Virus record (IMG/VR): IMGVR_UViG_3300045417_000647
Coordinates: 1 to 33,292 of that record
Strand: one strand, 5' to 3'
DNA length: 33,292 nucleotides
Source: a virus
The notes under the pieces are model-generated. The model was given only the letters and a program-made list of their open reading frames with translations, did no database searches and was not told the DNA's origin. Position 1 is the first letter of the stretch. The number at the start of each line of letters is the position of its first letter. A program made the position numbers and the translations under genes. Below are positions 28,325 through 33,292 of the stretch, piece after piece.

Positions 28325-28594
28325 TCAGTGGTTGTGCGGCTGGGTGGTGAGAGACCCGGCCGACGCCGCGTCCAGCGGCCGGGGAACAGGTTTCAGGGCC
28401 TCGGTCGCAAAGACCTTCATCGCCTCTTGGAGGTGATTGATTGCCCGCGTGTCGCGCCGCCGTTCGGCGCGGGCGATCAGGTCGCGCGCCAAGCTGCGAA
28501 CCGGATCCATGGGATCGGCGGCCTTGCGCTCACGGAGCGCCCGGGTCGCGGCCCGAAAGCCACGGCGCGCGGCGTCGAGGGCGTAACCGATCAT
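28325..28594 (-). CDS. Small basic unknown protein
   Basis: An 89-aa Arg/Ala-rich helical protein (RRGFRAATRALRERKAADPM, then LARDLIARAERRRDTRAINH) ending in a flexible His-containing tail. It overlaps the HTH gene upstream by ATGA. No domain is recognised. Its basic character may indicate nucleic-acid binding, but there is no motif. Confidence 0.65.
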   Translation of the reverse strand: MIGYALDAARRGFRAATRALRERKAADPMDPVRSLARDLIARAERRRDTRAINHLQEAMKVFATEALKPVPRPLDAASAGSLTTQPHNH

Positions 28595-29004
28595 CCGACC
28601 CTCCCCACGCTCTTCAGCACGTCGTGCATCTGGGCCTTGGCTTCCAGCGCGGCCTGACGGATGGGGCGAGCCTCGGCCTCTGTAATCTGTCCGTCGCGGG
28701 CGGCGAGGCGGACCATGCTCTGGACCCGTGCGGCAGCCTCGGTCGCCTCTGCCGCCTCGTCCAGAATGTCCTCGACGGCGCCTTCATCCGGCGACGCGAA
28801 GAGAGCGACCACCGCTCGGCGCTCGTCCGCCGTCAGGCTCATGTCGACCAGACGGCCCAGCGGAATCGTCGTCTCGGGCTTGTCGGCGTTCTCGTAGCCG
28901 CTCCAGACGCCAGGGCTGACGCCGGCGGCAGCGGCCGCAGCCTCGGTCGAGCCGTAGCGAAGCCGGATGCGTTTCGTGATGGCCTTGATGACGGGAATGC
29001 TCAT
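28591..29004 (-). CDS. Helix-turn-helix protein of the early operon
   Basis: A 137-aa protein. Residues 8-55 form an XRE-like helix-turn-helix: RIRLRYGSTEAAAAAAGVSP, then GVWSGYENADKPETTIPLGR. The remainder is helical (AVEDILDEAAEATEAAARVQ, ITEAEARPIRQAALEAKAQM). Its place, third in the leftward early operon behind a structured gap, recalls lambda CII, a second regulator of the lysis-lysogeny choice. This is only positional. The stop overlaps the next start by four bases. Confidence 0.7.
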   Translation of the reverse strand: MSIPVIKAITKRIRLRYGSTEAAAAAAGVSPGVWSGYENADKPETTIPLGRLVDMSLTADERRAVVALFASPDEGAVEDILDEAAEATEAAARVQSMVRLAARDGQITEAEARPIRQAALEAKAQMHDVLKSVGRVG

Positions 29005-29768: not shown

Positions 29769-29797
29769 AGAATGTGCAGGAATGCACGCTAAGTCAA
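29769..29797 (-). promoter_or_regulatory. Leftward early promoter (cro promoter)
   Basis: On the - strand TTGACT (29797-29792), a 17-bp spacer and CATTCT (29774-29769) form a good sigma-70-type promoter. The predicted start is near 29762, one base before the cro ATG. Operator site 1 (29774-29787) sits in the spacer, so repressor binding would exclude RNA polymerase. Confidence 0.65.
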
Positions 29798-29836
29798 TGC
29801 CGAAATGCACAGTGTCTTGACGTTGCACATGTGCAC
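29774..29836. promoter_or_regulatory. Three operator-like sites between cI and cro
   Basis: Sites of the form GTGCA-N4-TGCAC: 29774-29787 (GTGCAGGAATGCAC, perfect), 29797-29810 (ATGCCGAAATGCAC, half conserved) and 29823-29836 (TTGCACATGTGCAC, one mismatch). Spacing is 23 and 26 bp. The first lies in the cro promoter, the last next to the repressor start. They are the presumed targets of CI and Cro. Confidence 0.65.
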
Positions 29837-29845
29837 AATCGCGCA

Positions 29846-30529
29846 ATGGCAAACACCACCGAAGACGCTAGGGCTTTCCTCACCAAGGCGCTTGAGGCAT
29901 CCGGCCTAAAGCCCTTTGCGCTTGCCAAGAAGGCAGGAATCGCACCGACGACAATTACGCGGCCTCTAAACGACCCTGAGTTCAAATTTACACCGAAACC
30001 CGCAACCCTACGAAAGATCGCCGAGGCGGCCGGCTTGGAGCTGCCTGCAGGGCTGCTGGTAGCGCCGGCGGCGCCTGCCGCGGTGGATGAGCTGCCTCTT
30101 ATTGGCCCGATACAGGCGGGCAAGTGGGCCGAGATCGACGAGACCATTCAGGACGAGCCGCTGTTCTTCTCGGTTGTGGCTGATCGGCGCTACCCGCATG
30201 CCAGGCAGTGGCTTCGCGAGATCCGAGGCGATAGCATGAATGCGCGTGGAATTATGCCAGGCCAGCTCGCCCACATCGTCGATATCGCGGAAGCGGGCGT
30301 GAACCTAAACACTGGCATGATCGTTGAGGTCACGCGCTGCAGAGACGGCGGGGCGCTTCGCGAGATCACGCTGAAAGAGGTCGAGATCAGCGCAGACGGA
30401 ATGAAGCTTTGGCCGCGATCGACAAACCCACGATGGTCGGAGCCGATCAGCTTGGACGACGGGACGACCGGGGATATCGAGGTCCAAATCACGGGCTTGC
30501 TGCTGCAGGCGGTGCAGAGGTTCCTCTGA
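29846..30529 (+). CDS. cI: CI-like repressor with LexA-type self-cleavage domain
   Basis: A 227-aa lysogeny repressor. The N-terminal helix-turn-helix includes LKPFALAKKAGIAPTTITRP (residues 21-40). The C-terminal S24 peptidase domain has the cleavage site PIQAGKW (Ala91-Gly92), GDSM with the nucleophile Ser130, and the base Lys177 in REITLKEVE. All three elements are intact, so RecA-stimulated self-cleavage and SOS induction are expected. No ribosome site precedes the ATG, which fits a leaderless message. It diverges from cro across three operator-like sites. Confidence 0.9.
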   Translation: MANTTEDARAFLTKALEASGLKPFALAKKAGIAPTTITRPLNDPEFKFTPKPATLRKIAEAAGLELPAGLLVAPAAPAAVDELPLIGPIQAGKWAEIDETIQDEPLFFSVVADRRYPHARQWLREIRGDSMNARGIMPGQLAHIVDIAEAGVNLNTGMIVEVTRCRDGGALREITLKEVEISADGMKLWPRSTNPRWSEPISLDDGTTGDIEVQITGLLLQAVQRFL

Positions 30530-30536
30530 AAAGACA

Positions 30537-30563
30537 GAGGGCGGCACGCGCGGCGCCGCCCTC
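30537..30563 (-). terminator. Terminator between cI and the lipoprotein gene
   Basis: A perfect 9-bp stem GAGGGCGGC / GCCGCCCTC. On the - strand the stem is followed by TGTCTTTTC, giving termination of the lipoprotein transcript. It may also end the cI message, although no T-run follows on that strand. Confidence 0.65.
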
Positions 30564-30569
30564 GTTAGC

Positions 30570-30965
30570 TTAGTGCTGACCGGCGCCGACCACTTGGCCG
30601 ATCCACTGGCCCGCGCGATCCCAAAGGTTCGCCGTGGCTACAGGGCAGCTCTTCGCGCGCTGCGCCTCCTCGATTCCGGCAATCCGAGAGCGGATGGCGC
30701 GGTCGGCGTCAGACTTCGCCATGGCGTTGCCGATCCCATAGTCGCCTAGGAAACCTGCGACTGAGCGCCAGTCGAAATCGGCAGTTTCCGCGATCTGAGT
30801 CTGGATTTGCTTTGCGCGGACCATTTCCAGACGCAGCATGTCGCAGTTCATGGCATCCGCTTCAGCGGGCGACCACTGTGTTGCGATTGGGTAGCGCTTC
30901 GTCGCGCAGGCCGACACGGTGAACGCCACGGCGCACAGAGCCGCGACGGTTGCAATCTTCTTCAT
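30570..30965 (-). CDS. Small lipoprotein, possible lysogenic-conversion gene
   Basis: A 131-aa protein. Signal sequence MKKIATVAALCAVAFTVSAC with lipobox VSAC gives lipidation at Cys20. The mature part is charged and helical (CDMLRLEMVRAKQIQTQIAE, KSDADRAIRSRIAGIEEAQR) and has further Cys residues. GGGAGG seven bases before the ATG fixes the start. It lies between cI and the right operon, on the strand opposite cI, and has its own terminator, so it could be expressed in the lysogen. Lipoproteins in such places often block superinfection; that is inference. Confidence 0.75.
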   Translation of the reverse strand: MKKIATVAALCAVAFTVSACATKRYPIATQWSPAEADAMNCDMLRLEMVRAKQIQTQIAETADFDWRSVAGFLGDYGIGNAMAKSDADRAIRSRIAGIEEAQRAKSCPVATANLWDRAGQWIGQVVGAGQH

Positions 30966-31164
30966 TGATTTCCCTCCCAGGAATAAAACCACAACCCCCG
31001 TTGCGGCTTCTCTCCGCTCTAGCACAGCGTCAGCGCGAGTAAAGTTCTCCTGAAATCAAAGGTGGCGGCTCGGCTCCAGAAGGATTCAAGCGGGGAGCAC
31101 CGAGCCGCCTTGTTCCATTGGGGGAACGCGCTCAGAGGTAGCATAACCAGCAACCACATAAACT

Positions 31165-31203
31165 GTGCATTTATGCATTGACATGCAATGTGCAGGAATG
31201 CAC
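31165..31203 (+). promoter_or_regulatory. Two operator-like sites with a -35 element before the right operon
   Basis: GTGCATTTATGCAT (31165-31178) and GTGCAGGAATGCAC (31190-31203) match the cI-cro operator consensus. The second shares 17 identical bases with the first cI-cro site. TTGACA (31178-31183) lies between them. A clear -10 is not visible at 17 bp (CACAGT), so the exact promoter is uncertain. The arrangement predicts repression of the right operon by CI or Cro. Confidence 0.6.
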
Positions 31204-31229
31204 AGTCTCCGCATTAACGGAGACGCACC

Positions 31230-31475
31230 ATGCAGACCCAAGCCGCCACCGGCGTCGTGATCCCCTTCCGCCGCCCGGCCCATGCCCAGGGCCTTGTCAA
31301 ACACACCGCCCGCCTGTCCTGGCTGGATCGGGAAGGGCGCCAGCATGTCGAGCGGTTCGCCGCCTGGACCCTGTCTGAGGCGACGCGCCAGGGCTGGGTC
31401 CGGGCCCGATCACTGCGGCTGTCGGGCGAAGCCTCCACCTATCGCATCCAGCACACCGAACAGGTCTACGTCTGA
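31230..31475 (+). CDS. Unknown 81-aa protein, first gene of the right operon
   Basis: The protein starts MQTQAATGVVIPFRRPAHAQ and continues ARLSWLDREGRQHVERFAAW, ending VYV. It is a small, basic, beta-containing protein. GGAG lies before the ATG. Its stop overlaps the next start (TGATG). Homologues are not recognised. As the first early gene behind the operator cluster, an early takeover or counter-defence role is possible but unproven. Confidence 0.65.
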   Translation: MQTQAATGVVIPFRRPAHAQGLVKHTARLSWLDREGRQHVERFAAWTLSEATRQGWVRARSLRLSGEASTYRIQHTEQVYV

Positions 31476-32469: not shown

Positions 32470-32900
32470 TGGTCACCGCCCAGGAACGCGCCATCCTCCG
32501 CAAGGCCGCAGAGATCAAACGGGCGAAGAACCGGGAGCGGCGGATGAAGATCGCCGCCGCGCGCAAGCCGGGCGGCAAGGCCAGCCGGGGCAGGGAGCGC
32601 GACACCGGTTATCTGGCCTTCCTCCGTCGTCTTCCCTGTGTCTGCGGTTGCGGACGGCCGGGGCCCAGCGACGCGGCGCACATCCGCATGGCCAGCTCGG
32701 AGCGCGGCAAGCGGTCAACCGGGATGCAGGTCAAGCCGTCCGATCGGTTCGCCGTCCCGCTGAACCGCCTCTGTCACGAACGCCAGCACGGCATGGCCGA
32801 ACACCGCTTCTGGTCCGAGCTCGGCCTCGACCCCTTCGAGATCGCCGACCGGCTCTACGCCGAATACCGCACCCCTCAATCAGAAGGCTCTGAGAAATGA
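32469..32900 (+). CDS. Ref/DUF968-type HNH nuclease
   Basis: A 143-aa protein. A basic N-terminal helix (AEIKRAKNRERRMKIAAARK) is followed by a zinc-finger HNH core: LPCVCGCGRPGPSDAAHIRM (Cys57/59/61, Asp68, His71), DRFAVPLNRLCHERQH (Cys102, His103, His107), and the family end FWSELGLDPFEIADRLYAEY. Ref of phage P1, a RecA-dependent nuclease, and DUF968 proteins share this pattern. It may act in recombination or DNA cleavage during infection. Start lies in a TGATG overlap, with the downstream gene in ATGA overlap. Confidence 0.8.
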   Translation: MVTAQERAILRKAAEIKRAKNRERRMKIAAARKPGGKASRGRERDTGYLAFLRRLPCVCGCGRPGPSDAAHIRMASSERGKRSTGMQVKPSDRFAVPLNRLCHERQHGMAEHRFWSELGLDPFEIADRLYAEYRTPQSEGSEK

Positions 32901-33292
32901 CCGAAGTCACCATTCCGTTTGAAGTCAAAAACCGCTGGAGCGGTGAGATTCAGTTTACCGCGCAGATCACTTGCGCACCGGATGCGACCCCCGCCGTGAG
33001 GCTCGGGCTTGCCGTCCGATGGGCAGTGAAGGTCGGAGCCAATCTCGCCGACGCCAATCTCACCGACGCCAATCTCGCCGGAGCCAATCTCGCCAGGGCC
33101 TATCTCGCCGACGCCAATCTCGCCGGAGCCAATCTCGCCGGAGCCAATCTCACCAGGGCCAATCTCACCGACGCCAATCTCGCCGGAGCCAATCTCACCG
33201 ACGCCAATCTCACCGGAGCCAATCTCGCCAGGGCCTATCTCGCCGACGCCAATCTCACCGACGCCAATCTCACCGGAGCCAATCTCGCCAGG
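32897..33292 (+). CDS. Pentapeptide-repeat protein (cut by the window end)
   Basis: The ATG overlaps the nuclease stop (ATGA). About 47 residues with a normal composition ([34 protein letters not shown]) are followed by at least 17 uninterrupted pentapeptides A(N/Y)L(A/T)(D/G/R), running to the last base of the window. Such A(D/N)LXX repeats fold into a right-handed square beta-helix; some members (MfpA, Qnr) mimic DNA and bind gyrase. The function here is open; being a phage early gene, DNA mimicry or anti-restriction is a reasonable idea. The 3' end is not in the window. Confidence 0.85.
33038..33292 (+). repeat. 15-bp tandem repeats, 17 units, coding for pentapeptides
   Basis: Unit GCCAATCTCRCCGRM, with few variants: AGG for the last codon, TAT for AAT in two units. 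The near identity of synonymous positions points to recent expansion by slippage or recombination. Copy number may be unreliable in assembly. Longer blocks (for example the order R-Y-D) recur within the array. Confidence 0.85.

Follow-up and report, generated by a model that had tools for sequence, protein, structure and literature searches.

In phage lambda, two operator clusters, OL and OR, flank cI and rexAB. The cI and cro genes are divergent, the operators overlap the -35 and -10 elements of the promoters, OR2 is positioned some 42 bp ahead of the PRM start, and CI is a cleavable repressor of the S24 type. Rhizobium phage 16-3 has two sites in each of its clusters, oL1, oL2, oR1 and oR2 (PMC12429752). 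In phiLM21-like Sinorhizobium prophages, the same study, published in 2025, detected neither lambda nor 16-3 operators. Two further systems bear on the locus described here. Ahead of the T4 genes I-TevI, e and soc, a hairpin hides the Shine-Dalgarno (SD) sequence only on read-through RNA, since the proper promoter starts inside the hairpin (PMC2988022). Phage lipoproteins that exclude other phages are described under the name mEpimmI, and their genes lie in the structural cluster (PMC11893012).

We analyzed a stretch of viral DNA of 33,292 nucleotides (IMG/VR record IMGVR_UViG_3300045417_000647), referred to below as the window. At a probability of roughly 0.9, we read the region listed in Table 1 as the immunity region of a Caulobacteraceae temperate phage, in which CI and Cro would act on two operator clusters in a lambda-like switch. 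Three sites lie between cro and cI, and two lie ahead of the right operon; a weight-matrix scan returned no third right-hand, OL3-like site. As in lambda, the two clusters surround cI and accessory genes, cI and cro are divergent, the middle site precedes the predicted PRM start by about 42 bp, the operators overlap -35 and -10 elements, and CI is of the cleavable S24 type. Unlike lambda, the window has another operator sequence, three plus two sites instead of three plus three, enclosed genes that encode lipoproteins and are mostly convergent with cI, a cro gene predicted to be leaderless, and a hairpin between promoter discriminator and SD at the right operon. The first-pass annotation had also counted the mere presence of a gene between the clusters as a difference from lambda, but lambda likewise encloses rexAB. 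With 16-3 the locus shares an alphaproteobacterial temperate phage as its carrier and the presence of oL and oR clusters, whereas the operators of 16-3 are reported as distinct (PMC12429752). Three sites per cluster is not a defining feature, 16-3 having two and two. The operator system is thus a new member of the lambda/16-3 kind.

Table 1. Predicted features of the immunity region, in window coordinates.
Feature	Position	Strand	Details
cro-like HTH repressor, 83 aa	29510..29761	-	PHROG_4 7.6e-6; predicted leaderless
cro promoter -10 CATTCT	29769..29774	-	7 nt ahead of ATG
Operator A (OR1-like)	29774..29787	.	GTGCAGGAATGCAC; inside 17-mer 29771-29787; near-invariant in 11 phages
cro promoter -35 TTGACT	29792..29797	-	TTGAC in 11/11 phages
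Operator B (OR2-like)	29797..29810	.	ATGCCGAAATGCAC; abuts cro -35; two mismatches
Operator C (OR3-like, weak)	29823..29836	.	TTGCACATGTGCAC; overlaps PRM -10; one mismatch
PRM -10 CACAAT	29834..29839	+	6 nt ahead of cI ATG; -35 weak; from alignment and inference
cI, HTH + S24 peptidase repressor, 227 aa	29846..30529	+	Pfam PF00717, PHROG_4; predicted leaderless
Terminator-like hairpin of leftward lipoprotein transcript	30537..30563	-	
Lipoprotein gene, 131 aa, lipobox VSAC	30570..30965	-	PHROG_10370 lipoprotein 5e-15; between clusters
Operator B' (OL2-like)	31165..31178	.	GTGCATTTATGCAT; B inverted; abuts right -35; one mismatch
Right promoter -35 TTGACA	31178..31183	+	
Operator A' (OL1-like)	31190..31203	.	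GTGCAGGAATGCAC; inside 17-mer 31187-31203; overlaps right spacer/-10
Right promoter -10 CACAGT, 17-bp spacer	31201..31206	+	predicted +1 = A31213
Hairpin 5' arm GTCTCCG	31205..31211	+	upstream of predicted +1
Hairpin 3' arm CGGAGAC	31218..31224	+	contains Shine-Dalgarno GGAG (31219-31222)
Right operon first gene, 81 aa, no family	31230..31475	+	unrelated genes in its place in relatives

All five sites stand where the first-pass annotation had placed them, but its description of them as being of the form GTGCA-N4-TGCAC is loose: only A and A' match exactly, C and B' carry one mismatch each and B carries two. The 17-bp sequence that it had seen in both clusters, AATGTGCAGGAATGCAC, is indeed common to them; allowing up to three mismatches, it occurs twice in the window, against 0.05 occurrences expected, far more than chance would give. 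A second resemblance, absent from that annotation, links the clusters: positions 29793-29813 are an inverted copy of 31162-31182 (19/21 match). Therefore both early promoters have the same layout, in which one site abuts the -35 element TTGACW and the other covers the spacer and -10, as operator A does at cro. Read in their own sense, the cro promoter is GTGCATTTCGGCA-TTGACT-TAGC-GTGCATTCCTGCAC and the right promoter is GTGCATTTATGCA-TTGACA-TGCAAT-GTGCAGGAATGCAC. The bare pattern with up to two mismatches occurs in the window no more often than expected (14 sites against 15.5), and this loose count was dropped as evidence. The operator signal rests instead on exactness, clustering and conservation.

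A search with CI matched several viral contigs and a prophage of Brevundimonas viscosa, the closest named relative of the window phage. The sites keep their register in 11 distinct phages: relative to the cI start, A, B and C stand at -72, -49 and -23, and B' is separated from A' by 25 bp, while the A-A' distance ranges between 1213 and 2186 bp. Using a weight matrix built from the 10 other phages only, with the window left out, the window's five sites score 17.2-27.6 and the next best position in the 33 kb reaches 9.8; one of 20 random order-2 sequences of window length has a position above 12. In the 3.0-Mb genome of the related lysogen B. viscosa, one GTGCAN4TGCAY is found outside the prophage. 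The first-pass annotation had proposed such a scan and had named many equally good sites elsewhere as evidence against its operators; given the margin in matrix scores and the single extra-prophage site, its claim withstands this comparison. Furthermore, the two-site promoter pattern, searched as DNA only in 2.9 million viral contigs, retrieved 13 stretches on 11 contigs, every one of which encodes both CI (66-100% identity to that of the window) and Cro (58% or more). Site C is a putative OR3-like site, weak and non-universal because several relatives (P17716, P08450, P21576) retain only half of it, which coincides with the PRM -10.

Natural exchanges of the CI HTH provide a further comparison. 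The CI of locus L008 has a C-terminal domain 77% identical to that of the window, as within the GTGCA group, but an HTH only 25% identical; its locus has no GTGCA sites and carries CTGTTG..CAACAG palindromes in both clusters instead. In loci L039 and L009, which have another HTH, both clusters carry palindromes of the GGGGAA..TTCCCC type. With a Rhizobium phage CI as query we collected 55 loci, to which the annotated phages phi3LM21, RHph_TM3_3_3, phiAX1 and Mae-JY35 were added. About 30 further phages in this set keep the order cro operon, cI, enclosed genes and right operon but have other operators, with a palindrome around TTGAC common to both clusters. One of them, phi3LM21, is another prophage of Sinorhizobium strain LM21 and carries TTGGATTTA-type sites in both clusters. 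Operator identity tracks the CI HTH, and no other observation argues more strongly that CI reads the sites. Since HTH-swapped CI relatives carry other palindromes in both clusters, the five sites are almost certainly CI/Cro operators. It is very improbable that they are host-regulator sites or chance palindromes, as the flat count of the loose pattern might suggest, because GTGCA sites are confined to the two clusters, near-absent from the 3-Mb lysogen genome, conserved in register and exchanged when the CI HTH is exchanged. The earlier proposal of a mirror of lambda OR/OL with a different operator is borne out by the geometry fixed in 11 phages, the retrieval of CI/Cro loci by pattern only and the joint swaps of HTH and operator.

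The two repressors are recognizable from their sequences. CI scores 27.4 bits against PF00717 (cut-off 23.3) and 1.4e-11 against PHROG_4, and its cleavage motif A91-G92, S130 (the GDSM serine) and K177 are invariant in the alignment. No solved structure was matched by sequence to its S24 domain at E<0.03. In the AF2 model of CI the C-terminal half is poor, and a fold search with this model was dropped for that reason. Cro is modeled as a compact five-helix HTH protein (pLDDT 78.5) whose fold matches, all weak (E>0.05), include HipB, P22 c2 and 434 Cro. The cro gene, divergent from cI, heads an early operon of replication/CII-like genes, among them one for a CII-like regulator downstream of cro (28591-29004; phrog_101, 3e-8); lambda cII likewise follows cro. 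A scan with the sigma-70 consensus found no promoters, and the -10 hexamers score weakly against the E. coli consensus; promoters were assigned by conservation across phages. The gap between the cro promoter and the ATG is 7 nt in 11/11 phages, and cro is predicted to be leaderless.

Sites, spacing, conservation, promoter overlap and the joint swaps of HTH and operator are visible in the sequences; from them we infer binding by CI and Cro, cooperativity, looping, PRM activation and SOS induction, in a switch that would work as follows. Cleavable CI and Cro would bind the near-GTGCA-N4-TGCAC palindromes in two clusters separated by about 1.4 kb. The leftward cro/replication promoter would be shut by CI at A and B, and the rightward early promoter by CI at B' and A'. 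When bound to B, CI would probably activate cI; such autoactivation is likely because the PRM -10 lies 6 nt before the ATG and the centre of B 42.5 bp upstream of it, a placement like that of OR2 in lambda. Surplus CI or Cro on C, over the PRM -10, would turn cI off. Upon DNA damage, RecA-stimulated cleavage of CI at A91-G92 would relieve repression; this RecA-dependent induction is likely because CI has an HTH, an S24 domain, the serine, the lysine and the A-G motif.

The slot from cI to the right cluster, where lambda has rexAB, contains at least one lipoprotein gene in 10 of the 11 phages (the window, L018, L003, L006, L016, L017, L019, L025, L026 and L027); these genes come from five sequence families. 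The eleventh has a HIRAN-domain gene in this slot (L004:5522-6004, Pfam 4e-10), and a similar-looking gene occupies the same slot in L039. Searches with the enclosed lipoprotein genes yielded no functional assignment other than PHROG lipoprotein or unknown families. A role in superinfection exclusion may reasonably be guessed, because phage lipoproteins exclude other phages in coliphages (PMC11893012). Like the mEpimmI products, the window's protein is a phage lipoprotein, but its gene lies between the operator clusters and not in the structural cluster. Profile searches against Pfam and PHROG recognized no N-like gene at the start of the right operon. Further along this operon, a pentapeptide-repeat protein gene with 15-bp tandem repeats (32897-33292) runs off the end of the window.

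Directly after A', an inverted repeat, GTCTCCG-CATTAA-CGGAGAC (31205-31224), can form a hairpin of 7 bp (folding z -3.2). Its 3' arm contains the SD of the first gene of the right operon, and its 5' arm is formed by the last bases of the -10 together with the 6-nt discriminator between the -10 and the predicted +1. In other phages the arms differ and still pair: GTCACTCC/GGAGTGAC, CCTCCATC/GATGGAGG, CTCATC/GATGAG, TCCATC/GATGGA, TTCCTC/GAGGAA, GCTCTC/GAGAGC, CCAACT/AGTTGG and ACCTCAT/ATGAGGT. Rhizobial promoters were chosen by common operator words and not by the hairpin. An alignment of the leaders with MAFFT followed by pair counting was abandoned; because MAFFT misplaces the 3' arms of short leaders, we used instead a permutation test on pairing energies, comparing native with cross-paired discriminators and SDs. 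Over 23 deduplicated leaders, with arm windows picked after inspection, native pairs average -9.31 kcal/mol versus -6.81 for cross-paired ones (z -6.2, p 2e-5). The result is stable from n=33 to n=11 (p 2e-4 at n=11 under strict deduplication) and when each gene-1 family is represented by a single phage (z -6.6). The signal weakens when the 5' window is shifted upstream, and control gene starts with an SD from the same loci give z 0.25+/-1.0, with a minimum of -2.5 in 200 draws. The hairpin is retained though gene 1 has been exchanged for unrelated genes in most phages, and for this reason the element is best assigned to the promoter rather than to a particular gene.

These observations can be read as a gate set by the transcription start site, a proposal to which we give about even chances. 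RNA entering from cI or the enclosed genes would fold, hide the SD and leave gene 1 of the right operon untranslated, whereas RNA begun at the right promoter would lack the 5' arm and be translated. The promoter geometry fits a start inside the hairpin. With the -10 fixed and an A located 7 nt downstream of it in 14/23 leaders, the 5' arm would lie upstream of the +1, although start sites are predicted. In folding models of the window, the SD is unpaired at 0.66 in promoter-started and 0.00 in read-through RNA; means over the leaders are 0.39 and 0.15. Co-variation of the arms across phages with different operators also argues for the gate, as does the constant cro promoter-to-ATG gap: a leaderless cro may protect the left side in like manner. 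On the other side, SD accessibility compared with swapped discriminators is only suggestive (p=0.065), the idea of the gate was derived in part from the same data, and four leaders have no SD hairpin: P08450 (L027), P21576 (L025), L011 and L047.

These four right leaders are different and longer, with gene 1 far downstream. Those of P08450, L011 and L047 have in common a GTCTGGTCGTCCGCA-CGG-CGAGCG-like segment, and the hairpin-less leaders possibly represent a distinct RNA element.

Were the start further upstream, the repeat would form a hairpin in the native mRNA, for constitutive or RNA-binding-protein control of gene 1 or as a nut-like antitermination site. Its position right after an early promoter, like lambda nutL, and the frequent ATCAAC in the loop are in line with this. 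We nevertheless consider it unlikely: the fixed -10 and the A that follows place the arm upstream of the +1, no further copy was seen on the left transcript, the arm sequences vary freely, unlike a protein-recognized boxB, and Rfam gave for the leader nothing above threshold and one sub-threshold chance match. Still less probable is a DNA site of another dimeric regulator, since, although the inverted repeat adjoins the operators, its arms differ between phages while complementarity is retained, and a G-U pair in L009 and a bulge or mismatch in the P17671 arm are what would be expected of RNA.

The proposed start-site gate would follow the same logic as T4 I-TevI, with a hairpin that covers the ribosome site. 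Unlike the T4 case, it would belong to an early promoter under repression in temperate phages, and the discriminator would serve as the 5' arm. A literature search of partial coverage found no report of a discriminator-SD gate in temperate phages, and at a temperate early promoter such a gate appears undescribed as far as this partial literature shows. In its general form the proposal is slightly more tentative, at a little under even odds: in at least 20 divergent alphaproteobacterial temperate phages, the right discriminator may have co-evolved with the SD of gene 1 into a gate that limits translation to RNA of the repressor-controlled promoter, with the leaderless cro as its counterpart.

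The sites listed here predict the operators of a large group of temperate phages from Alphaproteobacteria, Sinorhizobium phi3LM21 among them, and are useful because no operators had been found in phiLM21-like prophages (PMC12429752). The natural swaps of HTH and operator offer a ready set for tests of repressor specificity. The gate, if true, would give the prophage a second lock against leakiness, at the level of RNA, one that outlasts the replacement of the gene it guards.
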